NCBI RefSeq assembly: GCF_006912135.1
Contig: NZ_VIRS01000001.1
Location: 1 to 64,000, forward strand
Length of the DNA stretch: 64,000 nt
Source of the DNA: Cryptosporangium phraense
Lineage (GTDB): Bacteria > Actinomycetota > Actinomycetes > Mycobacteriales > Cryptosporangiaceae
Direction: 5' to 3'
Shown one piece after another: positions 1 through 19,422 of this stretch (position 1 is the first letter of the stretch; each line of letters begins with the position of its first letter). The position numbers and the translations under genes were made by a program. Below the pieces are notes generated by a model. The model saw only the letters and a program-made list of their open reading frames with translations, was not told the origin of the DNA and made no database searches.

Positions 1-271
1 CCAGCAGGGCCTGGCCGGTCGGGCTCTCGGCGTCGGCGACCGCGACGACGCCCGCCCCGCGGGCGGCGGCCAGCACCGCGCCGGCCACCGCGCCCTCGTC
101 GGCGACCGGGCCGGTGACGACCGTACGGGTCGGGGTCAGGTCCCAGGGCTCGTCCGGCACCGCCAGCCCGGTGCGGACCGCCCAGCCGTCCGCGGCCAGC
201 TGCCGCACCACCGCGGCCAGGTCGCCGGGGCTGCGCAGCACGTAGAGCGGACGCGCCGCCGGGCCGGTCAT
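1..271 (-). CDS. Unknown protein, N-terminal part (runs off the left edge)
   Basis: Reading leftwards from an ATG at 271 there are about 90 codons with no stop before the window edge. The start overlaps the stop of the upstream LuxR-type regulator in an ATGA, so the two are probably translated as a coupled pair. The visible protein begins MTGPAARPLYVLRSPGDLAA and is Ala/Val/Asp-rich with alternating strand- and helix-like stretches. I see no signal peptide and recognise no family. Coding support comes from the open frame, strong third-position GC and the overlap. The function is unknown; the coupling suggests a product needed together with, or controlled by, the regulator. Confidence 0.6.
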   Translation of the reverse strand, partial: MTGPAARPLYVLRSPGDLAAVVRQLAADGWAVRTGLAVPDEPWDLTPTRTVVTGPVADEGAVAGAVLAAARGAGVVAVADAESPTGQALL

Positions 272-3200
272 CCGGCGCCCTCCAGGACGAGCGTGGCCGC
301 TTCGGTGCGGGTCCGGGCGCCGAGCTTGCGCATCCCCGAGCGGACGTGGGTCTCGACGGTCTCGCGCGAGATGCCGAGCTGACCGGCGATGCGCCGGGTC
401 GGTTCACCGGCCGCGACCAGGGCCAGCACCTCGCGTTCCCGGGCGGTGAGCGTGCTGGTGCGGGTGCGGTCGATCGTCGAGCGCCGGACCGAGAACTGGC
501 GGAGCGCCCGGTGGACCCGGCCGAGCAGCACGGTGAGCCCGGCGTGCTCGGCGTACTTCTCGGCGGCCAGGAGCGGCGGGAGCGCGCGGTCGACGTCCCC
601 GGTGGACAGCCCGGCGGCGAGCAGGCAGCGGACCTGCTCGCGCAGCGCGCTGCCCTGCCAGAGCGCGGCCGCGGCCTCGAACGCGGTCGGACCGCCCGAG
701 ACCGGGCCGCCCGGGGTCGGGCCTTCCGAGGCCGAGCCGCCCGAGGCCGAGCCGCCCGAGGCCGAGCCGCCCGAGGCCGAGCCGCCCGAGGCCGAGCCGC
801 CCGAGGCCGGGTGCCCCGGGGCGCTCGCGGAGCCGGCGCCGGAGCGAGCGGGACCCGCCGCTGATTCGGCCCAGGCCGAGAGGGTGGCTCGCACCGGGAG
901 CAGCCGGTGCCGGGCCGGGGCGTCGGCGTCGGCGCCGAGGTCGTGGCGGGCCCAGCGGGCGGTCACGGCGCCCAGGCCGCCGGCCAGTGACCCGTCGGCG
1001 GGCCCTACGGCGGACAGCGCCCGATCGGGCTGGCCGTCGAGCCACGCGACCTCGGAGTCCACCCACTGAACGAGCTCGGACATCCCGTCCCGAGCGGTCC
1101 CGTCGCGGCCGGTCCCGTCCCGGCCGGTCCCGTCCCGGCCGGACCCGTCCCGGCCGGTCCCGTCTCGGCGGGCGCGGCCGGCGCGGTCTCGGTCGAGGCG
1201 GGCGCGGGCCGGGGCCAGCGCGCCGGTGTCGGCCAGGGCGAGCGCGGCCGCGGCCAGTGCATAGCTGCGGGCCTGGGCCGGGAGCGTGCGGTCGAGCAGG
1301 TCCACCGCGCCACGGACGACCGCGTCGAGGTCGGCGCCGAGCAGCGCGCCGCACCAGAGCTCGGCGGCCGCGAACCGGGTCTCCCAGGAGTAGGCGAGCT
1401 GCCCGGCGCAGGCCGCCCGGTACTGACCGGCGACGGCGTGCGCCTCGGTGACGCGCCCGTCGGCCAGCAGGTTCTCGGTGAGGAGCCAGCCGCTCCACCA
1501 GGCGTCGACCGGGCGCCCGTCGGCCAGTGCGGCGCCGGCCGCGGCGGTCAGCGAGTCGACCCAGCCGTCGCGCCGTTCCCGGGCCCCGACCGCGGCCAGC
1601 GCGACCCGCACGGCCGGGAACCCGGCGAGCTCGGCCGGCACCGCGCCGGCCCATCCGCCGGCCCATCCGCCGGCCCATTCGCCGGCGCGGTCCGGGTCGA
1701 TCGCCAATTCGGCCAGCAGCGTGACCCGCACGTGCTCGGCCCGCAACACGTCCGGAGCCCCGTCCGCGGCGACCCAGCCCGAAGCGCCCCAGCCCGCGGC
1801 GACCCCCTCCGCCGCGACCCCCTCCGCCGCGACCCCCTCCGCCGCGACCCCCGGCGCCGCGACCCCCGGCGCCGCGATCCCCGGCGCCGCGGCGGCGCGC
1901 GCCGCCGCGACCGCCCCAGCCGCGTCCCCGCCCTGCAGCAACGCCTCCGCCCGCAACACCGCCGCCCGAACCCGATCCCCCGCACTCACCCACCCACCGC
2001 CCGCGCCACCCCAACCGGCGCCACCGGCCACGCCCCCCGCAGCACCGCCGCCCGCAGCCACACCACCCGCCGCGCCCCGCGCAGCCACCCCACCCGCCGC
2101 GCCACCCACAGCCACACCACCCGCCGCCCCGCGCGCAGCCACGCCACCCGCCGCGCCCCGCGCAGCCACACCACCCGCCGTGCCCCGCGCAGCCACACCA
2201 CCCGCAGCCGCGCCACCCGCCGCGCCCCGCGCAGCCACGCCACCCGCAGCCGCGCCACCCGCCGTGCCGCGCGCAGCCGCGCCGTCGCCGTCGGGCGCGT
2301 AGCCGTCCCCTGAGGGCGCATAGCCGTCGCCGAAGGGCGCGTAGCCGTCGCCTGAGGGCGCATGGCCGAGTACGCGGTGGCAGCCGGCGAGGTCGCCGGC
2401 GGCCAGCGCGGCCTCGGCCGCCTCCAACCGCAACGCCCCCAACGACCGCACCCTCCCCCCGACCCGCTCGGCCGGCGCCTCACCCGGTCGGACGCCGTCC
2501 GCGCCGGTGGCCCCGGCCTCCATCGCCGCGTCCGCCGCGAGCAGCAGCGCGGCGGCCCGGTCGCCGACCGTCGGGGCGCTCCGGGCCGCGGCCAGCGCCG
2601 ACCGGTACGCGCCGACCGGGTCGCCACCCGCCTGGCTGTGCCGGGCCGACTCGAGCCCGCTCAGCAGGTCGGCCAACCGCCGGTGCAACCCCGACCGCTC
2701 CGCCGACGGCAACACCGCCGCCGCCACCTCGGCCAGATACCGCGGCGACGGCGTGACCACCTCACCGTCCACAGTGACCCACCCGGCGTCCACCAGCTCC
2801 GGCACCCCCGGCCCGAGCAGCAGCGGCGACGCCGGTCGCCCGAGCAACCCCAGCGCGGCGAGCGCGGTCCGGGCCGGCCGCGGCAGGTCGGCCACCGCCG
2901 CCGCGACCGCCCGGTCGAGCGCCCCGGCCGCGCTGTCTTCGGCCGCCGAGGGCGGTGGATCGTCCGATTCCGGGCCGGACGAAACGGCGCGCATCGCCAG
3001 CGCCCGGATCGCCAGCGGGTTCCCGCCCGCCCGGTCGAGGACGGCGTCGAGAGCCCGCGCGTCCAGCGCCGGAGCCACCGACCGGGCCAGGTCCCGGGCC
3101 GGGCCGGCGTCGAGGCCGGTCAGCACCGTCCACCGGCTCGCCGCCGAACGCAACGCCTCCTCCGCGCCCGGCGGCAACCCGCCGGGCGTCCGAATGGCGA

Positions 3201-4367: not shown

Positions 4368-5870
4368 GTGGGGCCAGGTCCGCTGAGCCAGCGCGTCGCC
4401 GGACTGTGCCGGGAGGTAGGTCCCCGGCTCGGCGGCGGTACCGGCACGGCGGTCGCCGATCTCTCCCGGCGGCTCGGCGAGCCGCTGCGGGTGGCGATCG
4501 CCGGACGGCTCAAGGCCGGCAAGTCGACGCTGGTCAACGCGTTGATCGGGCGCCGGGTCGCGCCGACCGAGGTCGGCGAGTGCACCCGCCTGGTGACACA
4601 GTTCCGCTACGGCCCGGCCGACCGGGTCGACGTCGTCCGGCGCGACGGCCTGCGGGTCAGCCTCCCGCTGGACGAATCGGGCATGATCCCGCAGCGCCTC
4701 GGCATCCCCCGCCAGGAGGTGTCCTATGTCGACGTCACGCTGGCCAGCGACCGGCTGCGCGACCTGACCGTCGTCGACACCCCCGGCCTCAGCTCGACGA
4801 ACGCGCAGGTCAGCGCGGGCACCCGGCGCTTCCTGTTCAACGACAACCCGGTCGACGACGACCTCGACTCGGACTCGCAGAGCGCGCTGTCCGGGGCCGA
4901 GGCGATCATTTACGTCTTCACGCAGTCGGTCCGCGAGGACGACCTGGAGGCCCTGGAGGCGTTCCGGTCGATCTCGGCCCGGCTGTCGTCGAACCCGATC
5001 AACTCGCTCGGGCTGTTCAACAAGGTCGACAAGCTGGGCGGCGGCGGCGACCCCTGGCCGGTGGCCGGTCCGCTGGCCGAGACCCAGGCCCAGGCGCTGC
5101 GCCGCCAGGTCGCGGACGTGGTCCCGGTCGTCGGGCTGCTGGCCGAGACCACCGAGGCCGGACGCCTGACCGCGGCCGACTGCGAGAGCCTGCGCGCGCT
5201 GGCGGCGCTGTCGGCGGTCGACCGGGCCGTGCTGATGGCCTCGGTCGACCTGTTCACGACCCGCGAGTGCGAGGTCCCGGCCGAGCAGCGCGAGCGGCTG
5301 CTGCGCCTGCTCGACCTGTACGGCATCCAGTTCGCGGTGGCCTCGCTGGCCGCCGACCCCACGCTGGCCACCGGTGAGCTGATCCGGCGCCTGTACCGTG
5401 CCTCCGGCTTCCCCCGGGTCCGGCAGACGCTCGACCAGGCGTTCCGCTGGCGCACCGACGCGATCAAGGCCGGCTGGGCGCTCACCACGCTGGAGCAGAT
5501 CGCGGCCCGGGCCGAGCGTCCGGCCGACCGGGAACTGCTCCGGGACGCGGTCGAGCGCCTGCTCCAGCAACCCGAGTACCACCAGCTCCGCCTGCTCGAG
5601 GTGGCCCAGCAGGTCACCACCGGCGCGGTCGAGCTGCCGTCGGGGATGGAGTCCGAGCTGACCCGGCTCGCGCTCTCCGACGACCCCGGCTGGATCCTCC
5701 AACTGGCCGGCGCTCCGACCCCGCAGCTGGCCCAGGCCGCGCTCGAGGCGGCCACCCGCTGGCGGACGTTCGCGGTCGCCAGCGCCAGCCCGGCCCAGGC
5801 CCGGATCGCCCACGTCGCCCACCGCGGCTTCTACCTGCTGTCCCAGCGCGTTCGCGCGAACGCCTCCTAA
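4368..5870 (+). CDS. Dynamin-like GTPase (first of two; IniC/IniA-type)
   Basis: 500 aa from GTG at 4368 with GAGGAG just upstream. P-loop GRLKAGKST at residues 46-54, switch II DTPGL near 136 and NKVD (G4) near 218 define a dynamin-superfamily GTPase. The long C-terminal half is helical, as expected for the stalk. No clear transmembrane hairpin is seen in this copy, in contrast with the second GTPase. It is first in an operon with the GrpE-like membrane protein, the second GTPase and the acidic protein. Bacterial dynamin-like proteins often occur in pairs and act on membranes; mycobacterial IniA/IniC are the nearest familiar relatives. The ribosome site for the next gene overlaps the TAA stop. 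Confidence 0.85.
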   Translation: MGPGPLSQRVAGLCREVGPRLGGGTGTAVADLSRRLGEPLRVAIAGRLKAGKSTLVNALIGRRVAPTEVGECTRLVTQFRYGPADRVDVVRRDGLRVSLPLDESGMIPQRLGIPRQEVSYVDVTLASDRLRDLTVVDTPGLSSTNAQVSAGTRRFLFNDNPVDDDLDSDSQSALSGAEAIIYVFTQSVREDDLEALEAFRSISARLSSNPINSLGLFNKVDKLGGGGDPWPVAGPLAETQAQALRRQVADVVPVVGLLAETTEAGRLTAADCESLRALAALSAVDRAVLMASVDLFTTRECEVPAEQRERLLRLLDLYGIQFAVASLAADPTLATGELIRRLYRASGFPRVRQTLDQAFRWRTDAIKAGWALTTLEQIAARAERPADRELLRDAVERLLQQPEYHQLRLLEVAQQVTTGAVELPSGMESELTRLALSDDPGWILQLAGAPTPQLAQAALEAATRWRTFAVASASPAQARIAHVAHRGFYLLSQRVRANAS

Positions 5871-5884
5871 GGAGCTTCCCCACC

Positions 5885-6790
5885 ATGCCGACCAGCTTCG
5901 TCCGGCTCATCGTGGCCGGGCTGACCCTTGTCCTGGCCGTGCTGACCGGCCTGGTCACCGGTTTCGTCGCTGGCGGACCCGGGTGCGACGAGATCTCGCC
6001 GACGTCGACCGTCTCGACCGGTCCGTCGACCGCGGTCAACGGACCGGCGAACGCGCCGCAGAACGCGTCGCCGAGCGCGACCGGCGACATCAAGAAGGAC
6101 AAGCTCGACCCGGGCGGGAACAACGACACCCAGGGCGGCTCCCCGAAGAACGAGAACGGCGCGAGCCAGAACAGCAACCTCCCCGGCATCAACGAGTCGC
6201 TGACGCTCACCGGCGCGACCGCCGACTGCAGCGGGTTCTCGGCCCTGACCGCGGTGTTCGGGTTCCTCGGCGCGCTGTTCACCGGCGCGATCGTCGGAGG
6301 CGTGGCGCTGTTCCTGCCCCGGACCGACGCGCCGGCATCGGGCGCCGGGTACGTCTCCGGCTCCCGCGGACCGGGCGACGGGGGCGGGTTCGGTGCCGTG
6401 GGGCAGCCGCTCGGCGGCCGCCCGACCGGGACCGCGACCGCGACCGGCACCCACGCGGTGCTCACCGAGACCGGTGCGCCGGCCGAGACCGGCCTGCTCA
6501 AGCGCGAGCGCAAGACGCTCGTCGAGACCTGTATCTACGTCCGCGACCGGGCCACCAGCAAGGCGATCGCCGACCGCCTGGCCTGGGCGCTGAACGAGGT
6601 CGGCGTGGTCGAGGACCGGCCCGCCGGTGAACCGTTCGACACCGCGCGGCACGAGGCCGGCGGCACCACGCCGACCGCCGACGGGCGGCTGGCCGGCACG
6701 ATCGCCGCCGTCGAGATCTCCGGCTACACCGACCGCGGCCAGGTGCTGCGTGCGCCGGTCGTGACCGTCTACCAGGGGGACGCCCGATGA
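5885..6790 (+). CDS. Membrane-anchored GrpE-like protein
   Basis: 301 aa, ATG 14 bp after the preceding stop, with AAGGAG over that stop. Transmembrane segments lie at about residues 8-29 and 119-142, separated by a Ser/Thr/Asn/Gly-rich, probably extracytoplasmic stretch. Both ends should face the cytoplasm. The last ~90 residues resemble the beta-domain of GrpE, the nucleotide-exchange factor of Hsp70: the order GEPFDTARHEA, then a short Gly-rich turn, then GYTDRGQVLRAPVV matches the GrpE pattern GE-x-FDP-xx-HEA ... GY-x-xx-R-(V/L)LRPA-V. The coiled-coil dimerisation helix of ordinary GrpE is shortened or missing. It is translationally coupled (ATGA) to the second dynamin-like GTPase. I infer that it serves the membrane-anchored Hsp70-like protein at 15681-17189. 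The GrpE assignment rests on motif reading only. Confidence 0.7.
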   Translation: MPTSFVRLIVAGLTLVLAVLTGLVTGFVAGGPGCDEISPTSTVSTGPSTAVNGPANAPQNASPSATGDIKKDKLDPGGNNDTQGGSPKNENGASQNSNLPGINESLTLTGATADCSGFSALTAVFGFLGALFTGAIVGGVALFLPRTDAPASGAGYVSGSRGPGDGGGFGAVGQPLGGRPTGTATATGTHAVLTETGAPAETGLLKRERKTLVETCIYVRDRATSKAIADRLAWALNEVGVVEDRPAGEPFDTARHEAGGTTPTADGRLAGTIAAVEISGYTDRGQVLRAPVVTVYQGDAR

Positions 6791-8730
6791 CGGCCCCGAA
6801 GCCGGACCCCGCGGCGGCCCTGAAAGCGGTCGAGGAACAGATCCGCGGTGCGGTCGACACCGGCCTCGGCCACATCCGCCGGCTCGACCCCGACCTGGCC
6901 TCCGACCTCGACCAGGTCCGCCGGGCCGACGTCGGTCACCCGACCGTCGTCGTGGTCGGCGAGACCAAGCGCGGCAAGAGCTCGCTGATCAACGCCCTGC
7001 TGGCGACGCCGGGCCTGTCCCCGGTGGACGCCGCGGTCGCGACCAGCGCGTACCTGGAGTTCGCGGCGGGCGACCCGGCCCGGGCGCTGGCCCACGTGCC
7101 CGGCGACCCCTCGCCGCACCCGCTCTCGCTCGAGGCCCTGCGCGACTGGGGCACGGTGCTCGGCGCGATGCCCGACGGCCAGCGCCCGCCCCGGCACATC
7201 CAGGTGTTCCACCCGGCGCCGCTGCTCCAGCACGTCACGATCATCGACACGCCCGGCGTCGGCGGCCTGGACTCCACCCACGCCGAGATCGCGCTCGACG
7301 CGGTCGAGAAGGCCACCGCGCTGCTGTTCGTCGTCGACGCCTCGTCGCCGTTCTCCAAGCCCGAGCTGGACTTCCTGCTCGAGGCCAGCAAGCGCGTCAA
7401 CCTGGTGATGTTCGCGCTGACCAAGACCGACGCGTTCCCGGGCTGGCGCACGGTGCTCGACGACGACAAGGCGCTGCTGCACACCCACGCGCCGAGGTTC
7501 GCGCAGGCCGCGTTCTTCCCGGTCTCGGCCCGGCTGGCCGAGCTGGCCGACCAGATGCCGATTCCCGAGGCGGCCGACGAGGTCCGCAAGGAGTCCCGGA
7601 TCGCCGACCTGCGGAACGCGCTGCAACGCCAGGTCGCGGTGCGGAACGCGCTGCTCGTGCAGGCCAACCTCCTGCGGACGGTCCGCTCGGAACTCGTCGG
7701 CATGGACACGCAGATCGGCGAGAAGATGCGCGCGGTCGACCCCGATCCGGGGATGGCCGAGAAGCTCAAGGCCGAGCGGGCCGAGTTCGTCCAGCGCAAG
7801 CGCAAGGACGCCCGCACCTGGACGCTGACGCTCAACACGGAGGTGCAGCGCGCCCGCACCGACGCGACGTCGCTGCTCCGCGCCGAGGTGACCAAGGCGT
7901 CCGAGCACTACCTGACGATCGTCGAGAAGGCCACCGGCGAGCGCATCAAGCGGCTGCCGACCGACGTCGACCAGGCACTACAGGCGATCGCGCTGCGGAT
8001 CTCGGCCGAGATGGAGCGCCGGTTCCGGCTGATCGGCGCGAAGGTGCTGCGCGAGGTCTTCTCCGACGCCGAGCTCTCGCAGATCCTCACCCGGCTCAAC
8101 GCCCGGCTGCGCGCGGTCGCGTCGGCTCGTCCGCAGCGCGACGGTGGGGGCGCGGACAACGCGCTGGTCATCACCGGGGCCGCCGGTACCGCGTCGCTGA
8201 TGGGCAACCTGGCCATGCACGGCGGTGGCGTGGTGCTGGCCGGCACGGCCGCGGCCGGGATCGCGATCCCGGTCATCGGCCTGGGTGTCGGCCTCGCGGC
8301 CGGCGCGTTCATGCTCTACCGCCGCCGGGTCGGGAACGACCGGCAGCAGGCCAAGATCTGGCTCCGCGAGGTCTTCAACGAGGCCCGGGCGTCGATCGCC
8401 GAGGAGGTCCAGCACCGGTTCACCGACCTGCAGTTCGCGCTGACCGTGGCGCTGGACGAGGCGGTCGAGCGGAGGGTCGAGCAACTCGACGCGCAGATCG
8501 CCGAGATCGACAAGTCGCTGGCCGACGACAAGGCCAACCGGGCCAAGAAGCGGACCGTGCTGCAGGCCGACCGGGACGGGATCCGGGGGCGGATCAAGCA
8601 GCTGGACGAGGTGCTGGGCAAGGCCAAGGCGGCCACCCGGATCACGGTCCCGCCGATCGCGGCGGCCGCGGCCCCCGCTTCGGCGGGGGCGCCGGCCTCG
8701 GCCTCGGCCGCGGCCTCGGGGAAGGCGTAG
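6787..8730 (+). CDS. Dynamin-like GTPase with membrane hairpin (second of two; IniA-type)
   Basis: 647 aa, start overlapping the previous stop by four bases. P-loop GETKRGKSS at residues 58-66, DTPGVGG near 154-160 and TKTD near 212. A helical stalk follows, then two hydrophobic segments at about residues 460-515 (Gly/Ala-rich, ending before MLYRRRVG) that form a probable membrane hairpin, then a charged coiled coil and an Ala/Ser-rich tail. This is the bacterial dynamin-like arrangement with a membrane paddle. With the GTPase at 4368 it probably forms a hetero-oligomer, as in other tandem bacterial dynamins; that is inference. Confidence 0.85.
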   Translation: MTAPKPDPAAALKAVEEQIRGAVDTGLGHIRRLDPDLASDLDQVRRADVGHPTVVVVGETKRGKSSLINALLATPGLSPVDAAVATSAYLEFAAGDPARALAHVPGDPSPHPLSLEALRDWGTVLGAMPDGQRPPRHIQVFHPAPLLQHVTIIDTPGVGGLDSTHAEIALDAVEKATALLFVVDASSPFSKPELDFLLEASKRVNLVMFALTKTDAFPGWRTVLDDDKALLHTHAPRFAQAAFFPVSARLAELADQMPIPEAADEVRKESRIADLRNALQRQVAVRNALLVQANLLRTVRSELVGMDTQIGEKMRAVDPDPGMAEKLKAERAEFVQRKRKDARTWTLTLNTEVQRARTDATSLLRAEVTKASEHYLTIVEKATGERIKRLPTDVDQALQAIALRISAEMERRFRLIGAKVLREVFSDAELSQILTRLNARLRAVASARPQRDGGGADNALVITGAAGTASLMGNLAMHGGGVVLAGTAAAGIAIPVIGLGVGLAAGAFMLYRRRVGNDRQQAKIWLREVFNEARASIAEEVQHRFTDLQFALTVALDEAVERRVEQLDAQIAEIDKSLADDKANRAKKRTVLQADRDGIRGRIKQLDEVLGKAKAATRITVPPIAAAAAPASAGAPASASAAASGKA

Positions 8731-9594: not shown

Positions 9595-9975
9595 ATGTCT
9601 GAACCGACCCCGCTGGCCACGCTGGCCATGGTGAACCTGGACGCCCCCGACCCGGGCGCGCTGGCCGACTTCTACAGCGCGATCCTCGGCTGGCCGGTGG
9701 TCCACCGGCAGGCCGAGTACGCGATGATCAGCCCCGAGGCCGGGGCCCCGATCGGCTTCGGCCGCGTAGAGGGTCATGTGCCTCCGGAGTGGTCCGAGGA
9801 TGCCGCCCCCGACAAGCGCTTCCACCTGGATCTCTCGGTGGACGACCCGGACGAGGCCGCCGCCCGCTGCGTCGCGCTGGGCGCCACCAAGCCCACCTTT
9901 CAGCCGGGCGCCGACCGCTGGACCGTACTCCAAGACCCCGCCGGCCACCCCTTCTGCCTCTGCCGACGCCCCTGA
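9595..9975 (+). CDS. VOC (glyoxalase/bleomycin-resistance fold) family protein
   Basis: 126 aa from ATG at 9595. It begins with the VOC pattern (LATLAMVNLDAPDPGALADFY, then SAILGWPV) and ends WTVLQDPAGHPFCLC, the usual last strand with a metal-site-like His near the end. It is the length of one glyoxalase_6-type subunit, which would dimerise. The substrate cannot be told. It lies 42 bp after the acidic protein gene and may be read with it or have its own promoter. Confidence 0.85.
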   Translation: MSEPTPLATLAMVNLDAPDPGALADFYSAILGWPVVHRQAEYAMISPEAGAPIGFGRVEGHVPPEWSEDAAPDKRFHLDLSVDDPDEAAARCVALGATKPTFQPGADRWTVLQDPAGHPFCLCRRP

Positions 9976-10191
9976 CGAACGCTGCCACGGCGACCGGCGC
10001 CCGCTGCCGGGCCACGGCCCGCCCACGCGCACCCACTAGCGCGACGGCCACCCGATTCCACCGGGCGGGCGTGCCGCTCCGAGCCAGCTTGCGCTGACCG
10101 GGGCGGCCTTCCGGCCAAGAGATGTCGGCATGCCTGTGTCACCAGCAAACAGCAATGCCGGCTGCTCGCGCCGTCGAACTATGACTGAAGG

Positions 10192-13100
10192 TCAACTCGA
10201 GCGCTTTCGGCTTCCGACAGTGTCGCTCATCTCGAGCATTTTCCGCTGCTGTACTACGGACCAATCGCCGACCTGGATGGAACTCTCGATCAGAGTGTAT
10301 ATGCGGCTCAGCCAGTTATTTGCGGATTGAAGCCCCTCACGACGAATCTCGGCAGTGTTGCCCAGCGCCACGGTTTGTACGAGTAGCGAGCAGAATTCTC
10401 GCAGTTGTGGCCGAAGCGAGGGAGTCCCCGAGGCAACCTCCGCGACCCGAACCAGAAAATCGCCCAGCCAGTGCTGCCGATCGATGAGTACGTACGGCGC
10501 TTCACTGCAGTCGGCACGCAGCATCGCCGCGCCGCGCCCACGGCTGACAGTCTTTTTGCTGATGGGAACAATCACAATCGCCGTCGTAGGTTTGTAGTCG
10601 CCGAACTCTGCTATTCCGGCGGACGCGTGCAGATAGAAGTCGATGCCACTAGGCACGATTTCGTAGTGGATTGCCTGTTGCAATTGCGCTGCATCGAGCT
10701 CCGCGATGTCGCGTTGATAGCCGAGTCTCCGCGCACTTCGAAGCAACAATGCAGCTTCGCGAATCGTCCGGGTGAAGAAGACCTTCGTATCAATCCGCTG
10801 CTCGGAAAGCCAAGCAGCAAATAGCGGGTCGGCGTTGATGTCTTGTATCTTGGTATAAAAAACGCGCACATTGTGAGCGCCAGCACCGCGAGCCAACACG
10901 TCCGAAAGGGTCTGGTTCCGCCGCTCAGTCGAAGTTAGTTGGTCCAGTAGAACGTGTTGACCATAGACATCGGCCATCGCATCGGTCAGAACATCGGAGT
11001 TGCTATAAGAGTAGTTGGACGCCGGGGTCCGGGCAGGAGTGTAGTAGAATTGCTGCCCATCCTCGACCGCACCGAAGATTGCCGAGCGAAGATAGTCGCT
11101 CCGCTCGCGAGGATTAGGTATCTTGTCGACCGCATCGATCAGATGTCTCTTCAACGCAGCGGTGGTCTTGGTAATCAAGTCCGACTTCAATTTGTTTTGT
11201 GAATTTGAATCGAGCATGAATTCATTGCGAGATACATTTAGCTTGAGAACGTCCGCATCAAAATTTATGAGGCCGTAGATCCGTCGGAAGTAGGCGTGAT
11301 AAGTCTCCCCGTGACCTCTCCGTTCTCCGAAGATCTTGTTATCATCTTTGACCCATATTCCTGCCTGAGCGAGGGCGATCCGATTATCCGGCGAATTCTG
11401 CCAAAAGAATTCTCCACGCCTTTCGCCTGACGAGGGGCCGACCTTCGGAACGGCAATACAGACGGTACCGGAGTACCCGCGTCCTTCTATTTCGACCTCG
11501 ATCAGCTCGACCGAAGAGCGCCAGGCACCCGAGGGCACAATCGTCGGGACGATAGGTGGTGTAGCGTTCGCAGGGATGTGCTCCTGCGCATCGTCGTCAA
11601 TAATCGAGATATCTACTACGGGACAAAGAAAGTGACGATGAACGAGCTTTGAGATTGATTCTTGCAGTTCGTCCTTGAGTTCGAGTGAGATCAGGGTGCC
11701 AGGCGCCGCAGACGGTATACGCTGAAGGTAGAAATCCTCCATCAATCCCGGAATGTAGATGTCAAGTCCCTCGCGAGGTCCATCATCTGCTGCGTGAAAC
11801 GTAGTGATCCTCGCTGACGTCGCTGCCATAAATACCGATAGAAAGCCCACTCCGAACTTGCTGATCGGGCTGAAAGTGCGGCTCCTGCTGCGAAGCTCGT
11901 CCTCTAGCTCGGGTGATCGATAATAGGACCTACCCACTTTTGAGAAAAACTTCCTGACGTGATATAGCGACATTCCGATACCATTATCATGGACGCGTAC
12001 CTCCCGGTCCCGTCGGCTATGAACGATCGTCACCTTCGGCCGATAATCGCGCTCACCCAGCAAGACCTTACGGAGCAACGTCGCGTCGATTGCGTTCTGC
12101 AGCAACTCTCGCACCCACACGTCTTTATTCCCGTACAACTCCTCACCCATGAAGATCTTCAGGATGTGCTCGCTTTCGAGTTCGAAATAGCAGTCGACTA
12201 CCTCGAAGTTTGCACGTTGGACAAGGGGTTGAACTCGAGTAAACGGTAGTTGGGAGTCCGATCGGCCGAGCACGTCCTCCGCTCGTTCGAGCGCTGTCTG
12301 GATCAATGAGCGATTAGTGGTGACGAGTCGATGAACGCGGGGATTAGGCGCCTCGACCACTATTTTCAATAGCTGCAAGTCGTGCTCAATCCAGCAACTT
12401 TCAAACGTCGGAGAATCATTTAGATCCGGAACCGTATCAGGCAGCACTTGGTGGTGCAGCGCCGATCGGTATTGTTCACAGTACGGTCCAAATGCCGCAG
12501 CGAGGTGGATACACAGGGCCGCTGTGACATGGAGTTGGCCTACCGGTCGGGCACCCGTGGAAGGCGCATGTTGGGGATCGGAAATAGCCGTAACGGCAGA
12601 GTCGATATTTGAGACCACCAGAGGCAGGGAGTCCGCCCACGTGGAGTCGAAGTTCACACTTTCGACTAGGCGCTCGATAAAGGCGGGGAGACTTCCGACC
12701 GACTTCCAGTTTCTATTATGAATCCATTTCGACGAATACCACAGGGCCGCTAGGCGCACGGCCGTGACGGCCATCGCCACACGATGCTCATCCGAAGTTG
12801 GCGGCTCGAACTCTTCGGCTCTATCGAGTGCTTCTCGACTCGAAATGCCACTAAACATCGTCAGGGCAAGCCGCTCGAAATCGATGCACACGGCATCACG
12901 GCGCTCCGCGCAAAGGGCCCGTCTCCCCGCCGACACGATTGTTTCGACCTGTTGCCGCAACCGACGATTGGAGTCCAGAATCGCGAATAGACCGTCATCG
13001 ATCGACTCGGACTTCCCACGAATCAGCGGAGCCACCGGAGCAGCCAATGACGTGTACTTCTCGTTGCCAACAGAGGCATATTGCAAAGCGGGGAGGACGC

Positions 13101-13728
13101 TCTGGATCTCAATCCATGGAAGACGCTCAATTGCGTCCGTCTTGAGGAGCACGCCAAGGGGGTCGCATATTAGGTAACGGTGGAGCGAACTGTCAACTTC
13201 CACTGCCCAAAAGCGGAGGGCTTGGCCGAGAACGAGATCTATTCTGATAACGTTCAATCCGGCTTTTTCTTCGACCCATCGCTTCAACTGGTCGATTGGC
13301 AGAATTCTTTTCTGCCGTGCCACCGCCTCAAGCATATCTTCGGCATCATAGAACCGAAAATTCTCATTCGATGACTGCTGGCGTATTACGTTGTATTGCG
13401 CTCTCGGGCCGCCGATTGGGTCCGCTGGCACTTCATCGATCGCAAGCAGGATCGCGATGCGTTCGGGGTGACTCTGGCGAGCGAGCGCGAAGTCGCCGTA
13501 GAATGATGTCAAGGAGTCCTTGCGCAGAGGGGTGTCGTCTGCGTGGCAGCGGATTGTCAACGGCGTCGGCGAGTGCGCTCGATACTCCCAGTTGAGCCCT
13601 CCGGCGGGGATCGTTTCCAATTCTTCGACTCGGCATACGCCAGATATGACCTCCTTAGCGAACGGCTTGAAGATCCGCGCTTTTTCGATTGGCGTAGTCG
13701 AGGCGGGGGCGGCGATCAGAATAGACAT
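10192..13728 (-). CDS. Giant Hsp90-like (GHKL) ATPase, candidate defence protein
   Basis: 1178 aa from ATG at 13728 with AAAGGA upstream. The ATPase core is intact: catalytic Glu and Mg-binding Asn in RELLQNAIDA (about residue 540), DNGIGM near 581, GVGFLSVFM near 626 and GTLISLEL near 677. These are the N, G1, G2 and G3 boxes of the Hsp90/HtpG type of GHKL fold. A middle-domain-like region with LNVSRNEFM (about residue 820) follows, and then ~300 residues of unassigned C-terminus. Unlike HtpG, about 500 residues precede the ATPase. The first ~110 of these alternate strands and helices and might be a degenerate restriction-endonuclease-like fold (weak). GC is about 55% in a line I counted, far below the neighbours. 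It lies 34 bp after the DUF4062-like gene, so the two form an operon. It is not a housekeeping HtpG. Confidence 0.8.
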   Translation of the reverse strand: MSILIAAPASTTPIEKARIFKPFAKEVISGVCRVEELETIPAGGLNWEYRAHSPTPLTIRCHADDTPLRKDSLTSFYGDFALARQSHPERIAILLAIDEVPADPIGGPRAQYNVIRQQSSNENFRFYDAEDMLEAVARQKRILPIDQLKRWVEEKAGLNVIRIDLVLGQALRFWAVEVDSSLHRYLICDPLGVLLKTDAIERLPWIEIQSVLPALQYASVGNEKYTSLAAPVAPLIRGKSESIDDGLFAILDSNRRLRQQVETIVSAGRRALCAERRDAVCIDFERLALTMFSGISSREALDRAEEFEPPTSDEHRVAMAVTAVRLAALWYSSKWIHNRNWKSVGSLPAFIERLVESVNFDSTWADSLPLVVSNIDSAVTAISDPQHAPSTGARPVGQLHVTAALCIHLAAAFGPYCEQYRSALHHQVLPDTVPDLNDSPTFESCWIEHDLQLLKIVVEAPNPRVHRLVTTNRSLIQTALERAEDVLGRSDSQLPFTRVQPLVQRANFEVVDCYFELESEHILKIFMGEELYGNKDVWVRELLQNAIDATLLRKVLLGERDYRPKVTIVHSRRDREVRVHDNGIGMSLYHVRKFFSKVGRSYYRSPELEDELRSRSRTFSPISKFGVGFLSVFMAATSARITTFHAADDGPREGLDIYIPGLMEDFYLQRIPSAAPGTLISLELKDELQESISKLVHRHFLCPVVDISIIDDDAQEHIPANATPPIVPTIVPSGAWRSSVELIEVEIEGRGYSGTVCIAVPKVGPSSGERRGEFFWQNSPDNRIALAQAGIWVKDDNKIFGERRGHGETYHAYFRRIYGLINFDADVLKLNVSRNEFMLDSNSQNKLKSDLITKTTAALKRHLIDAVDKIPNPRERSDYLRSAIFGAVEDGQQFYYTPARTPASNYSYSNSDVLTDAMADVYGQHVLLDQLTSTERRNQTLSDVLARGAGAHNVRVFYTKIQDINADPLFAAWLSEQRIDTKVFFTRTIREAALLLRSARRLGYQRDIAELDAAQLQQAIHYEIVPSGIDFYLHASAGIAEFGDYKPTTAIVIVPISKKTVSRGRGAAMLRADCSEAPYVLIDRQHWLGDFLVRVAEVASGTPSLRPQLREFCSLLVQTVALGNTAEIRREGLQSANNWLSRIYTLIESSIQVGDWSVVQQRKMLEMSDTVGSRKRSS

Positions 13729-13762
13729 TGTGTCCTTTGCTGACTAGAACCTAGAAGTGTTG

Positions 13763-14665
13763 CTATACGAGGTGCAATTGTTCTTCGATTTGCTGGGTGC
13801 CTTGCCGGTCGATCCATGAGATGACGCAGCGAACTCTGCGTGAGGAATCGTCGGTCGCAACGATGTGAAAGCGGATCTCGTCGCCGGAATCGATCTTCTC
13901 CGCCGCGCACTCGTCATGGTTGGCGCCTAGGATGCGCCATGGTTTCTCACCCCTGGAGACCGACTCCAGCTCGATCCTTACTTGCTCGGCAGGCGCCTTC
14001 CCGGTGTTTTGCAGTACGAGATACCAGTCGCGACTGCTAAACGACCGGTGAGAAGCGAATGTGCGAAATCGTTCGCTCGACTCGACCCTTACATGAACTT
14101 CTGCGGCCTCAGCCGTCGCAATATCCGCGTGCCCGAGCTGCTGATGAATTTTTGCGTTCTCCTTGGTCATTACGCTAGTCAAAACCAGATCGATGAGGTG
14201 GATGAGCTCGGCGTCGTCTTTGTATGTGCGCACCAGGCATTCGTCCGTGATGCTGGTGAGGTAAGAACGCAGATTCGCGGCCTGCATATGATCAATTTCG
14301 TCGGGATCGATGTCCCTGCGGCAATGAAGAATCCCGACATACTTGTCGCGGCTTCGGAATCTATTGATCTCGTGCACCGTACCGGACGAGTAAAGGCCGG
14401 TTGGGGTTCCCAACCGGTTGGCGAAGATTGCCAGACAGCAGTCACATTCGTCGGCTATCTGCTCATCAATCGTTTCTTGAGGCGATCGTCCGTAGTCCGG
14501 CGCAACCGCGCCGTACCAGTCCGCCACGATGAACGTCGTGCTGTAATTTCGACTGTGCCGTAGATTCCAGCGGTTCACTTCATGTCGGACAACGTCGAGA
14601 TCGGAACGCGGCACATCTTGAGGGCAGGACAAGAGTATCGTTCGAATCGTGGCCGTATATGCCAT
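13763..14665 (-). CDS. DUF4062/TIR-like protein with C-terminal beta-sandwich, partner of the Hsp90-like ATPase
   Basis: 300 aa from ATG at 14665, chosen over a GTG at 14701 because GGGAG lies eight bases upstream. Residues about 5-135 look like the DUF4062/nucleosidase-TIR-like Rossmann fold: ILLSCPQDVPRSDLDVVRHE, ADWYG, then DEQIADECDCCLAIFANRLG and a Ser-Gly-Thr-x-x-Glu (SGTVHEINRF) in the place of the catalytic Glu. A helical link follows (about 160-200), then an Ig-like beta-sandwich (YLVLQNTGKAPAEQVRIELE). Such folds serve as NAD- or nucleotide-cleaving effectors or as sensor domains in bacterial immune proteins. It is first gene of the operon, with low GC. Effector or sensor activity is inferred. 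Confidence 0.75.
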   Translation of the reverse strand: MAYTATIRTILLSCPQDVPRSDLDVVRHEVNRWNLRHSRNYSTTFIVADWYGAVAPDYGRSPQETIDEQIADECDCCLAIFANRLGTPTGLYSSGTVHEINRFRSRDKYVGILHCRRDIDPDEIDHMQAANLRSYLTSITDECLVRTYKDDAELIHLIDLVLTSVMTKENAKIHQQLGHADIATAEAAEVHVRVESSERFRTFASHRSFSSRDWYLVLQNTGKAPAEQVRIELESVSRGEKPWRILGANHDECAAEKIDSGDEIRFHIVATDDSSRRVRCVISWIDRQGTQQIEEQLHLV

Positions 14666-15680
14666 CGAGTCACTCCCGACGTGTCGCCGTGGAGGGCGCA
14701 CCGGTGAGCGGCATGCCCAGACCGCTCAAGGTAGTGCCCCTGCGCCACCTTCGTCGCTATTTGACACATCGTCCGAAGGGCTTGTACTGCACTCGTCGCC
14801 GCCTGCAATGTTTCGGTATGGTGCGATGGCTCAACGTGATATGCGCATATCTCTAGGAGTGGCCGTGAGCCTTGCGTACGGTGACCCTGGCCCGGACGAG
14901 CGTTCGCACAGCACAACTCGAGCGTCGGATAGACGTCCAAATGCTCGGTCATAGCTGCCTGGCGCCCTGGCTGTGGGCCTGCGGCTGGGCACCTCAGCTG
15001 CGCTCGCACGGAGCAGCCGTGTTTTGATTATGGCTTTCACGAATGACAACAATGCATCCCGCCCGTGGGCCGGCGCGGCGGTCGCTCGCTCGGGAGGTGC
15101 CCACTCACATTCTTGCGCGCCTTCCAGCTAGCGCCGAGTGTGATGTTTGATCGTGGCTCAAGACGAGTTGGCGTTGCCCGCCGGAAGCCTCGGATACCGC
15201 ACCGGTCGCGCGATGCTGCAGCGCTCGCTCGCCCACGATCGGAGGATCGAGTGCGCTAGCGCCTTCAACGGCTCTGCGCGCGCCAACACTCCCCGGTTGC
15301 CGAGCAAAACCAGCGATCAGGCGGCGCGTTCCGTCTCAGCCCGGCAACGTCAAAGGGGTCGCACCTCGACCACTCCGTACCGTGGCTCTCTCACGCCGAC
15401 CAGGGCCGTTTAGGTGGCTGGTGCTCCGTCTGACCACGCCTGGTTTACCGAAGTGAGGTCCCCCAGTAGGGAGCGTCGGCAACTGAGGGCTGCGAAGGTC
15501 AGCGGTGGACGTACCTTAACCATCTGCGGCCGCCCATTTACCGCCGCAGCCGTAATGCAACCTCAACCCGCGCATGGCGATGGGCCAGCGGCCGCGGCAT
15601 TACCCGACGCCTCGCCGACCAGTATTCGCGGGCAGCCCGCCCGGGCATCGGCGCCCCATCGGCCCGACGCGACACATCAA
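14666..15680. other. About 1 kb without a recognisable gene, beside the low-GC island
   Basis: No recognisable reading frame, RNA gene or clear terminator is seen. Composition is mixed, lower in GC than the surroundings over 14666-15250 and rising towards 15680. The part next to 14665 must hold the promoter of the DUF4062/Hsp90 operon. A minus-strand frame beginning at ATG 14952 (MTEHLDVYPTLEL) is open but overlaps the DUF4062 start, has mixed codon use and matches nothing I know. The stretch may be the decayed edge of the inserted island. Confidence 0.6.
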
Positions 15681-17189
15681 TTATGCGTTACTCCCCAACG
15701 CCAAACACAAAATAATGAAGAACCCCAACAACAACACCAGCGCCACGATCAGCGTCACCACCACCGCCGGCTCCTGGTACCACCGCTTCCGCTCCACCGC
15801 CGCCGGCTTCACCGACGAAATCGGCGGAATCGGCGCCGCCACCCTCGGCGGCATCGGGTTCGCGACCCGGGGCGGCATCGGCGTCCGGATCGGCGCCGGG
15901 CTGGCCGGCGGACCCGACAACGGACGGGCCTGCACGTGCGGCGGCGGCCCACTCACCGGGCGAGCCGGAGCCGACACCGGACGCCCCGTCGGCGCACCCG
16001 ACACCTGCGGCCCCGCAGGCCCCGCAGGCCGCACCGGCGGCCCCGAGCGCGGAGCCACCGGCGCCGCCGCCGGCCGGACACCCGGCGTCGCCGGCCGCAC
16101 GCCCGACGGGGCCCCCGCTTCGCCGGGCAGCGAACCGACCCGCAGGCTGCCCTCGGCGACCACGGTCTCCGGCTGCTCCAGCGCGGTCGGCGCGACCTGC
16201 AGCTGGCTGTGGATCAGGTGCGCGGCCAGCGGGATCCGGCTCGACCCACCGACCAGGAAGATGCCGACCAGATCACGCGGGTTGAGGTGCGCCTCGGTGA
16301 TCGTCGTCGTGAGGCAGTTGACGGTCCGCTCCAGGTACGGGCGGATCAGCTGCTCGAGTTCGTCGCGCGTGAGGTGGGCGTCGATCTCCATGGCCGGCAG
16401 GTGGATGTCAGCGCTGGTCGTGCGGGAGAGCATCTCCTTGGCGCCGCGGACGTCCTCCCAGAGCATCCGCCGGTTCCGCCGGTCGGTGGCGTCGACCGGG
16501 TTCTGCAGGCGCTGCCAGAAGTCGCCGTTGGTGCGCGAGTAGACCTGCCCGAGGTGCTCGATGACCGCGTGGTCGAAGTCCACGCCACCGACGTCGGGCA
16601 GACCGCCCTCGGCCAGCACCTCGAAGCCGGCCGGAGTGCGCCGGACGACCGTCGCGTCGAACGTGCCGCCGCCGAGGTCGTAGATGGCCAGCGAGCGGCC
16701 GACCGGCACCGCGGTCTGCAGCTCGGCGGTGAAGTACGACGCCGCGGCGACCGGCTCGGCGATCAGCTTGGGGCGGGGTAACCCGGCCCGGACCGCGCCC
16801 TCGATCAGCACGTTGCGGCGCCGCTCGGCCCAGCGGGCCGGGTGGGTCATCCGGACCTCGTCGGGGAGAGCGCCGATCTGGCGGCGGGCCTCGGTGGCGA
16901 CGGTGCCGAGCACGGTCGCGAACACCTCGGGCACGGTCAGCTCGCGGTCGCCCAGAAAGATGGTGCCGTCGTCGACCCGGCGCTTGGGGTTGGGCTCGAA
17001 CCGCCCGGGGTCGACCCGCGCGTTGCGCTCGGCGTCGCGGCCCACCACCATCCGGCCGTCGGTCCCGAGGTAGACCGCCGACGGCAGCAACGGTGAACCG
17101 TCGAACAACAGCGGCCGAACCCGGCCGTCCGGCGTGCGGAGCATCGCCACTGTGTTCGACGTGCCGAAGTCGATACCCAGCACGCGCAT
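15681..17189 (-). CDS. Hsp70-like ATPase with C-terminal membrane anchor instead of a substrate-binding domain
   Basis: 502 aa from ATG at 17189 with GGGGGAG upstream. A full Hsp70/actin-fold nucleotide-binding domain is present: phosphate 1 GIDFGTSNTVAML at residues 4-16, IAEPVAAASYF, phosphate 2 IYDLGGGTFDATVV and adenosine VGIFLVGGSSRIPL. It ends near residue 360, where DnaK would begin its beta-sandwich substrate domain. Here a Pro/Ala/Gly/Arg-rich linker of ~100 residues follows, and one hydrophobic helix (VVVTLIVALVLLLGFFIILC) ends the protein. The NBD should therefore face the cytoplasm, tethered to the membrane. It is not DnaK. It fits with the GrpE-like membrane protein and the dynamin-like GTPases, from which the Hsp90 island separates it. 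Confidence 0.9.
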   Translation of the reverse strand: MRVLGIDFGTSNTVAMLRTPDGRVRPLLFDGSPLLPSAVYLGTDGRMVVGRDAERNARVDPGRFEPNPKRRVDDGTIFLGDRELTVPEVFATVLGTVATEARRQIGALPDEVRMTHPARWAERRRNVLIEGAVRAGLPRPKLIAEPVAAASYFTAELQTAVPVGRSLAIYDLGGGTFDATVVRRTPAGFEVLAEGGLPDVGGVDFDHAVIEHLGQVYSRTNGDFWQRLQNPVDATDRRNRRMLWEDVRGAKEMLSRTTSADIHLPAMEIDAHLTRDELEQLIRPYLERTVNCLTTTITEAHLNPRDLVGIFLVGGSSRIPLAAHLIHSQLQVAPTALEQPETVVAEGSLRVGSLPGEAGAPSGVRPATPGVRPAAAPVAPRSGPPVRPAGPAGPQVSGAPTGRPVSAPARPVSGPPPHVQARPLSGPPASPAPIRTPMPPRVANPMPPRVAAPIPPISSVKPAAVERKRWYQEPAVVVTLIVALVLLLGFFIILCLALGSNA

Positions 17190-17282
17190 GAGGCTCCCCC
17201 TTTCGCCGGTCACCTTATCGGGGCCGTACGACAGCCCGGATCGCCCATGTCGGTTCCCCGACCGACCGCGATACTGAACCGC

Positions 17283-18044
17283 GTGCCACCCCCCTTTCTC
17301 GATGCTCCGCGTCCCCTCGCGTTCGCTCACCGTGGCGGCGCGGCCGACGGCCTCGAGAACACGATGACCGCGTTCGCGCAGGCCGTCGCGGCCGGCTACC
17401 GGTACCTCGAGACCGACGTCCACGCCACCGCCGACGGCCAGCTCGTCGCCTTCCACGATCGGACCCTCGACCGGGTCACCGACCGTAGCGGCGCGATCGC
17501 TGCGCTCCCGCTCGCCGAGGTCCGCGCCGCCCGCGTCCGCGGCACCGAGAAAGTCCCCCTCTTCGACGAACTTCTCGACGCCTGGCCCGACGTCCGCCTC
17601 AACATCGACGTGAAGGCGGACGCGGCGGTCGAGCCGCTGATCGCCACCATCACCACCCACCAGGCGGAAGACCGGGTGTGCGTCGGGAGCTTCTCCGACG
17701 CGCGCCTCAACCGGGTCAGAGCCGCCTTCGGCGGGAGCGTGGCGACGAGCCTCGGCCCGCGGGACGTGGCCCGCCTCAAGCTGGCCTCGCTCACTCGGAG
17801 CCGGCCGACCTTCGCTCCCGGCGTCTGCGCGGCCCAGGTCCCGATCCGGCACAGCGGCCTGAGGCTGGTCGACGCCCGGTTCGTCGACAAGGCCCACCAG
17901 GCCGGCCTCCAGGTCCACGTCTGGACGATCGACGACCCGGCGACCATGCACCGTCTGCTCGACCTCGGTGTGGATGGCATCATGACCGACCGGATCGACG
18001 TCCTCCGTGACGTGCTCACCGCCCGCGGCTCCTGGGCCGCCTGA
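17283..18044 (+). CDS. Glycerophosphodiester phosphodiesterase (GDPD family)
   Basis: About 253 aa from GTG at 17283; an in-frame ATG at 17247 would add 12 residues, and neither has a clear ribosome site. The family signature is complete: FAHRGG, GLENT, ETDVHATADGQLVAFHD (catalytic His and metal ligands), LNIDVKAD and the closing VWTIDDPATMHRLLDLGVDGIMTDR (quoted in parts). It hydrolyses glycerophosphodiesters to glycerol-3-phosphate and an alcohol. No signal peptide, so cytoplasmic. It is divergent from the Hsp70-like gene and lies 19 bp before the MFS gene, a likely two- or three-gene operon with tdk. Confidence 0.9.
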   Translation: MPPPFLDAPRPLAFAHRGGAADGLENTMTAFAQAVAAGYRYLETDVHATADGQLVAFHDRTLDRVTDRSGAIAALPLAEVRAARVRGTEKVPLFDELLDAWPDVRLNIDVKADAAVEPLIATITTHQAEDRVCVGSFSDARLNRVRAAFGGSVATSLGPRDVARLKLASLTRSRPTFAPGVCAAQVPIRHSGLRLVDARFVDKAHQAGLQVHVWTIDDPATMHRLLDLGVDGIMTDRIDVLRDVLTARGSWAA

Positions 18045-18063
18045 ACCTCCCGAGGACGCCGCC

Positions 18064-19422
18064 GTGACCACCGAGACGGTGACCGAACCCGTGTCCACAC
18101 CCCGCGAACGTCGGGGCTGGTACTTCTACGACTGGGCGGCGTCGGCCTACAACACGACGGTCACCACCGTCTTCCTCGGGCCGTACCTGACCTCGATCGC
18201 GGAGAAGGCCGCGGGCTGCGCCGAGGAGGGTCAGACGTGCGCGGACCTGCACCCCCTCGGGATCCCGGTCGCGCCGGGGTCGTTCTTCGCCTACGCGCTC
18301 TCGCTGTCGGTGTTCGCGCAGGTCCTGGTGCTGCCGATCGTCGGCGCGTACGCCGACCGGTCCTGGCACAAGAAGCGCCTGCTGGCCTGGCTGACCGCGT
18401 TCGGCGCCGGCACGACGCTGGCGATGCTGTTCGTCACCGGTGACCGGTACCTGCTCGGCGGGGCGCTGCTGGTCGTCTCGAACATCCTGTTCGGCGCGGC
18501 CGAGACCGTGTACTACTCCTACCTCCCGCAAATCTCGGATCCGGACGAACGGGACGCGGTCAGCAGTCGCGGCTGGGCGATCGGCTACCTCGGCGGCGGT
18601 CTGCTGTTGCTGTTCAACGTCATCGCGGTGCTGGCCGGCGACAGCCTCGGCTGGTCGACCGCCGAGATCGCCCGGTGGAGCATCGTGTCGGCCGGCGCCT
18701 GGTGGGCGGTCTTCGCCGTGTACGCGATCCGGCCGCTCCGCGACCGGCCACCGGTCGAGACCTCCCGCAGCCGGTCGGTCTTCTACGCCTTCAATCAACT
18801 CGGGCGGACGCTCCGCGAGCTCGGTTCGCTGCGCCTGACGCTGTTCTTCCTCATCGCGTACCTGGTCTACAACGACGGCATCCAGACCGTGATCACGCTG
18901 TCGGCGACGTACGCGACGGAGGAGCTGAAGCTCGAGCAGACCGCGCTGGTGCCGACGATCCTGATGATCCAGTTCCTGGCGTTCGGAGGCGCGCTGCTGC
19001 TGGGCGCGGTGGCCCGGCGGATCGGGGCCTGGAAGGCGGTGCTGGCCAGCCTGGTGCTGTGGGCGGTCGTGCTGGTCGCCGCGTACTTCGTGCCGGCCAG
19101 GGCGCCGCTGCAGTTCGTCGCGCTGGGGGCGGCGATCGGACTGGTGCTCGGCGGCAGCCAGGCGCTGTCGCGGTCGTTGTTCAGCCAGCTGATCCCGGCC
19201 GGCAAGGAGGCCGAGTACTACGGGATCTACCAGATCAGCGACCGGGGCACGAGCTGGCTCGGCCCGCTGCTGTTCGGGCTGGCCTACCAGCTGACCGACA
19301 GCTATCGGATCTCGATCGTGTCGCTGATCGTGTTCTTCGTCGTCGGGTTCTTCCTGCTGCTCGCGGTGCCGATGCGGCGGGCGATTCTCGCGGCCGGGAA
19401 CGAGCCACCTAGGCTGCTCTGA
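18064..19422 (+). CDS. MFS transporter, UMF1/Atg22-like
   Basis: 452 aa from GTG at 18064 with CGAGGA upstream. About twelve membrane segments. The N-terminal RGWYFYDWAASAYNTTV motif and the loop GAYADRSWHKKRL are characteristic of the Atg22/UMF1 group of major-facilitator permeases. It probably exports or imports amino acids or small solutes; the substrate is unknown. Its TGA stop overlaps the ATG of thymidine kinase by one base, so the two are co-translated. Confidence 0.85.
   Translation: MTTETVTEPVSTPRERRGWYFYDWAASAYNTTVTTVFLGPYLTSIAEKAAGCAEEGQTCADLHPLGIPVAPGSFFAYALSLSVFAQVLVLPIVGAYADRSWHKKRLLAWLTAFGAGTTLAMLFVTGDRYLLGGALLVVSNILFGAAETVYYSYLPQISDPDERDAVSSRGWAIGYLGGGLLLLFNVIAVLAGDSLGWSTAEIARWSIVSAGAWWAVFAVYAIRPLRDRPPVETSRSRSVFYAFNQLGRTLRELGSLRLTLFFLIAYLVYNDGIQTVITLSATYATEELKLEQTALVPTILMIQFLAFGGALLLGAVARRIGAWKAVLASLVLWAVVLVAAYFVPARAPLQFVALGAAIGLVLGGSQALSRSLFSQLIPAGKEAEYYGIYQISDRGTSWLGPLLFGLAYQLTDSYRISIVSLIVFFVVGFFLLLAVPMRRAILAAGNEPPRLL

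Follow-up and report, generated by a model that had tools for sequence, protein, structure and literature searches.

A strain-specific gene pair of Cryptosporangium phraense, encoding a DUF4062 TIR-like protein and an Hsp90-like ATPase, as a candidate two-gene immune system

Introduction

Do two adjacent low-GC genes of Cryptosporangium phraense, coding for a DUF4062/TIR-like protein (gene 1) and a very large Hsp90-like ATPase (gene 2), make up an immune system, and which of the two proteins would then act and which would control? The original prediction, made from the letters of the window (the whole 64,000-nucleotide stretch of DNA analysed here), took the pair for a candidate undescribed defence system, with the ATPase sensing or licensing and the gene 1 product as effector. 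Immune systems with Hsp90 and Hsp70 modules were reportedly described by Nicastro et al. in 2023 (NAR 51:11479), where Hsp90-like modules are said to be used like STAND switches together with nucleotide-targeting effectors. As to the other component, a May 2026 preprint presents DUF4062 proteins as TIR-like NADases with anti-phage activity (Swarozyc), among which KpSwz protects E. coli by abortive infection, requires its catalytic Glu and is activated by a phage portal protein through a C-terminal HTH/winged domain (PMC13174449). The pairing looks undescribed, with no named system of exactly this composition in the open-licence papers searched, whereas the type of effector is now a described one.

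Results

The gene pair occupies a strain-specific insert

Both genes lie on the minus strand with a gap of 34 bp, an arrangement first read from the letters and confirmed by the list of open reading frames (Table 1); counted from its first start codon, the frame of gene 1 spans 13763-14701, and the ATG at 14665 is a better start. GC content per 1-kb interval is 0.52-0.60 within the pair vs 0.69-0.83 in the intervals clear of it on both sides, in agreement with the dip noticed originally, and third-position GC is 0.62 for the ATPase gene and 0.66 for the DUF4062 gene, compared to 0.85-0.97 for six neighbouring genes measured.

That the pair was inserted between a dynamin/GrpE-like operon and an Hsp70-like gene, as proposed, is borne out by empty sites. 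The insert, of ~5.7 kb, is absent from 3/3 congeners examined, which are all the same-genus genomes among the 61 relatives searched: alignment to the window ends at 9981 (G001), 9975 (G003) and 9548 (G002) and restarts at 15691, 15691 and 15687, leaving ~106, ~160 and ~58 bp in between, respectively; a 126-aa gene at 9595-9975 is also missing in G002. In G008, which belongs to another family of the same order, only ~1.5 kb separates the equivalents of window positions 8622 and 16103. The insert and its borders show no tRNA or Rfam RNA and no clear target duplication, a search on plasmids revealed no mobile-element traces in 14666-15690, and neither a known defence gene nor any gene beyond the pair was recognised between the empty-site borders. 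The GC profile and the empty sites mark the pair as foreign DNA, probably horizontally acquired.

Two LeoA/LeoB-like dynamin genes surround a GrpE-like gene at 4368-8730, and the Hsp70-like gene lies across the insert at 15681-18098. Because this series of dynamin, GrpE-like, dynamin and Hsp70-like genes is conserved in the three congeners without the insert, its members are older residents that fall outside the two-gene unit.

Table 1. Features of the locus (window coordinates)
Feature	Position	Strand	Basis
Low-GC strain-specific insert holding the gene pair	9982..15686 (limits approximate)	.	Empty sites in 3/3 congeners and G008; GC profile
Gene 1, 300 aa, TIR-like protein of the DUF4062 family, predicted to be an NADase effector	13763..14665	-	ORF; PADLOC PDC-S60, E 2.2e-8; 11-sequence alignment; profile match to KpSwz (10wc_A), E 4.1e-4
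GGGAG, ribosome-binding-site-like, ahead of gene 1	14673..14677	-	Sequence
DUF4062/TIR-like domain, about residues 1-165	14171..14665	-	Conserved part of alignment A1
SGTVHE motif, residues 94-99, with E99 as predicted catalytic Glu	14369..14386	-	S94, G95, T96 and E99 the same in all 11 sequences of A1
C-terminal tail, about residues 185-300, possibly an Ig-like beta domain	13763..14113	-	Aligned with tails of L029-L033, L013 and L014; no Pfam match
Gene 2, Hsp90-like ATPase, 1178 aa	10192..13728	-	HATPase_c_3, 1e-6; HtpG model, 1.4e-23 over residues 515-693, far under its cut-off
AAAGGA, ribosome-binding-site-like, ahead of the ATPase ATG	13733..13738	-	Sequence
N-terminal module of unknown kind, residues 1-490	12259..13728	-	No relative in searches
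GHKL/Hsp90 ATP-binding module, residues 515-692, with E541, N545, D581, G583 and G585	11653..12186	-	Profile matches; alignment A2
R834, an Arg conserved in the Hsp90-like middle segment	11227..11229	-	Invariant in alignment A2, the profile of which extends its TRAP1 match through the middle domain

Gene 1 encodes a likely TIR-like NADase

With 14.7 bits, gene 1 remains under the Pfam cut-off for DUF4062 (24.7). Its assignment to this family, which upholds the DUF4062/TIR-like identity suggested from the letters, follows from the PADLOC match to PDC-S60, from an alignment of its product with ten relatives (A1) and from the match of the A1 profile, at positions 67-170, to the solved structure of KpSwz. 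E99 may be the counterpart of KpSwz E97: in the profile match, its column is paired with an Ala in the deposited KpSwz chain (a correspondence by column rather than by chain numbering), and the E97A substitution of the cryo-EM construct would fit; the adjoining, nearly invariant Glu of A1 is replaced by H98 in the gene 1 product. The tail aligns with those of other actinobacterial relatives and leaves KpSwz unmatched; its best hits among solved structures have E-values of 1.4 and 1.7, and it is possibly beta-rich with an Ig-like fold. Judged by these similarities, the gene 1 product is likely a TIR-like NADase that acts as a suicide-type effector.

An alternative that stays within the same fold would make the pair a non-immune stress or regulatory unit, its gene 1 product being a nucleoside or nucleotide hydrolase from the deoxyribosyltransferase-like side of the fold instead of an NADase. 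DUF4062 is indeed distantly similar to nucleoside 2-deoxyribosyltransferases, but the activity shown for its members is NAD+ hydrolysis (PMC13174449); and while the insert adjoins dynamin, GrpE-like and Hsp70-like genes, their presence in congeners that lack it indicates that they are not partners. We consider this alternative very improbable.

DUF4062 proteins are encoded in 11/298 genomes of the order and 10/396 genomes of the phylum, both counts including the genome studied here, and in 6 loci of viral contigs; none was found in phages at 1e-3. One of the viral contigs (L076, 4740-6965) carries two DUF4062 genes in tandem.

Gene 2 combines an Hsp90-type ATP site with an unmatched N-terminal module

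The ATP-site motifs quoted for gene 2 and its ~500 extra N-terminal residues were read correctly. In an alignment of 20 Hsp90-like proteins (A2), R540, E541, N545, D548, D581, G583, G585, M586 and R834 are invariant, the conservation of K624-M634 in the same alignment being a product of how the motif search was constructed. We take E541, N545, D581 and R834 to be the equivalents of the catalytic Glu, Asn, Asp and middle-domain Arg of Hsp90, respectively. Compared with solved structures, the A2 profile matches TRAP1 through its middle domain. Despite sharing ATP-binding and middle-domain residues with HtpG and TRAP1, gene 2 scores 83.2 bits against the HtpG equivalog model, whose cut-off is 371, and carries the large additional N-terminal module; score and architecture together rule out HtpG, or a housekeeping chaperone, as its identity.

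Residues 1-500 have no match in Pfam, and the module has no relative in pattern scans of genome and viral contigs, which detect close relatives only. Apart from its own genome, no homologue is found in 396 genomes of the phylum, on plasmids, or in two other phyla sampled with 169 and 159 genomes, for which an empty answer shows little. When the full-length protein was compared with the 61 relatives and with 299 genomes of a further phylum, the matches listed (for the latter in order of E-value) consisted only of segments containing the Hsp90 module, and so did the best 20 of 95 plasmid records and the best 20 of 34 phage records, with no relative of the N-terminal module among them. At the other end of the protein, residues 691-1178 found nothing on plasmids, and among the ORFs of the fetched loci none was credibly similar to fragments of the ATPase. 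By sequence, the N-terminal module thus appears new as far as checked. A nuclease-like fold, suspected by eye for residues 1-120, is unsupported by Pfam or solved structures.

The ATPase module resembles those of HD-CE and iHD-CE proteins

A scan for the motif KFG-x-GF-x-SVFM returned 3 viral and 17 genome loci. In phmmer comparisons the ATPase module reaches 114.7 bits with L066 and 114.4 bits with L060, and at most 59.1 bits with the remaining motif matches; a family profile built from 19/20 motif loci (L062, whose ORF is cut, was dropped) matches residues 499-717 of gene 2 with 133.5 bits, the value quoted here because the corresponding E-value of 4.8e-43 refers to a one-sequence database. 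Alignment of the module with the family by hhalign gives 99.8%. Pfam scanning for HD-CE and iHD-CE, which covered 5/22 of the Hsp90-like loci that came from the motif search or have frames over 1100 aa, identified an N-terminal HD-type domain in 5/5 (4 HD-CE, 1 iHD-CE).

By these comparisons, the closest relatives of gene 2 are the Hsp90-like modules of HD-CE and iHD-CE proteins (Pfam PF24391 and PF24401), with which its ATPase module shares a branch. Unlike them, gene 2 shows neither HD-type domain: residues 1-500 have no Pfam match, and hhalign gives 0.1% for residues 1-520 against the family; in their place stands the unmatched ~490-residue module, and the gene of the predicted effector is adjacent. 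A 1283-aa frame from another actinobacterium of the order (L089, 6387-10238) consists of iHD-CE followed by an Hsp90-like module.

This architecture bears on a second alternative, in which the Hsp90-like protein would be a chaperone-like inhibitor that folds and silences the NADase until infection releases it, comparable to chaperone-dependent toxin-antitoxin pairs. An Hsp90-type fold encoded in one unit with a likely toxic enzyme would suit such a keeper, as would the stabilisation of idle NLR receptors by eukaryotic Hsp90 (PMC12169576); an N-terminal module of ~490 residues, however, exceeds the needs of a plain holdase, and the HD-CE and iHD-CE domains on relatives of the ATPase module suggest a switch rather than an antitoxin, so that we hold inhibition of this kind to be unlikely.

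The neighbourhoods of the relatives are mixed. At five Hsp90-like loci, picked by eye as telling, the gene lies between HsdS and HsdM of a type I restriction operon, not far from a Fic gene (L057, 1747-4290), comes after an AAA_21-RloB pair (L067), or is found near a P2-type gpA gene (L040), by AAA genes (L065) or near a subtilase (L082). Other relatives, also judged by eye, adjoin ordinary genes, such as GroEL-like (L059) and alanyl-tRNA-synthetase-like (L058) ones. These contexts support mobility and conflict roles for some of the Hsp90-like relatives, not for all. Two viral contigs encode an 874-aa Hsp90-like protein (L039, 3273-5897; L040, 5744-8368) and a third one of 748 aa as cut (L041, 6604-8847); the L039 protein combines HD-CE and HATPase by Pfam, and the protein looks like phage-borne cargo.

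The pair is met once, and DUF4062 relatives have other partners

No Hsp90-like gene is present at the 26 other DUF4062 loci fetched, and no DUF4062 gene at the 29 Hsp90-like loci fetched; many of these loci end at contig ends, where a missing neighbour is a weaker absence. The 26 derive from 35 loci, considering that L019-L027 duplicate L029-L037, while L073 and L074 have identical coordinates, E-values and sequence start, and L028/L038 have no DUF4062 match at E 0.01; the 29 comprise 22 from the motif search or with frames over 1100 aa and 7 that are HtpG-sized or unclassified (L016, L017, L077-L081). Since the pair is met only here, co-inheritance of its genes is unsupported. The original prediction had named as its refutation that homologues would always be single housekeeping genes without co-occurrence, enrichment near defence genes or a phenotype: co-occurrence is indeed missing from the loci examined, but neither gene is a housekeeping one and the insert is strain-specific.

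Relatives of gene 1 keep varied company. A congener has one of 38% identity elsewhere in its genome, beside PDC-S02/HEPN-like and ParA-like genes (L029); others adjoin a HARE-HTH gene (L030) or a Schlafen/AlbA gene (L033), and a close relative at L083 (689-2787) is followed after ~32 bp by a 390-aa gene of unknown kind, possibly as another two-gene unit. Given these differing neighbours of its closest DUF4062 relatives, the NADase seems to be an exchangeable module that changes partners, with genes 1 and 2 as one rare combination.

The same loci speak for a third alternative, namely that a stand-alone Swarozyc-like NADase merely happens to lie upstream of an Hsp90-like protein with a job of its own: the relatives at L029, L030, L033 and L083 have similar tails and other neighbours, and the pair does not recur. 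Against two independent pieces of cargo speak the 34-bp spacing on the same strand, the matched low GC and the recognition of no further gene within the empty-site borders, and we judge independence to be improbable.

Discussion

Weighing these observations, we give about an even chance to the reading that the pair is an acquired two-gene abortive-infection system in which the Hsp90-like ATPase would gate the TIR-like NADase; within such a system, the clamp would most likely serve as switch and the NADase as executioner. We hold more tentatively to the narrower version, in which the system is an undescribed one whose Hsp90-type clamp, equipped with a new sensor module, would gate the NADase directly and so play a STAND-like role.

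Gating is suggested because DUF4062 relatives are anti-phage NADases and gene 1 keeps the SGTxxE motif with E99, while gene 2 keeps the ATP-site residues and R834; because some of the HD-CE/Hsp90-like relatives lie beside HsdS/HsdM, AAA_21-RloB or a P2-type gpA; and because the two genes share a strand within one strain-specific insert, 34 bp apart. A precedent for a GHKL ATPase needed in defence is VcSduA (Shedu), which has a GHKL N-terminus and is inactive as E27A; the ATPase works there alongside an effector domain as well, but the effector is a nuclease and is fused to it in one protein (PMC12137116). Counted against gating are the single occurrence of the pair, the single-gene nature of KpSwz, H98, the absence of a known defence gene from the insert and the ordinary neighbours of several relatives.

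Starting from what is observed, namely the two ORFs, the insert with its empty sites, the domain relationships and the conserved catalytic residues, we infer the following course of events. The gene 1 product, as a DUF4062 TIR-like NADase, would be held idle until needed. An infection signal, presumably from a phage, would be detected by the N-terminal module of gene 2 and perhaps also by its C-terminal part; ATP binding and clamp closure would then assemble or free the NADase, so that regulation would be activating and would involve contact between the two proteins, probably through the beta-rich tail. As NAD+ drops, the infected cell would halt ahead of phage release.

The closest known counterpart of gene 1 is KpSwz (PDB 10wc, 11cq, 11cv), with which it shares the DUF4062 TIR-like domain, a length of about 300 residues and, it appears, the invariant Glu of the equivalent motif. 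Their match is confined to the profile positions given above, and the HTH/winged portal-binding domain of KpSwz is undetected, by sequence, in the gene 1 tail. Moreover, KpSwz works as one gene whereas gene 1 sits in a two-gene unit, and Hsp90, HATPase or chaperones go unmentioned in the text of the preprint (PMC13174449). Both components are of known kinds; their combination and the N-terminal module of gene 2 are new as far as checked.

If gating holds, an Hsp90-type ATPase would be the switch of an NAD+-depleting immune system, in the form of a compact and testable pair; the DUF4062 family, to which human TEP1 belongs, would comprise not only proteins that sense for themselves, like KpSwz, but also effectors under a separate ATPase; and the unmatched module of gene 2 would be a new candidate sensor.

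Other features of the window

Positions 1-3000, which cover a 1115-aa LuxR-type (GerE) gene, have a GC content of 0.81-0.83, above the rest of the 30 kb profiled. At 37121-39844, a 907-aa helicase-like protein has many PADLOC HamB matches and is probably a generic helicase.
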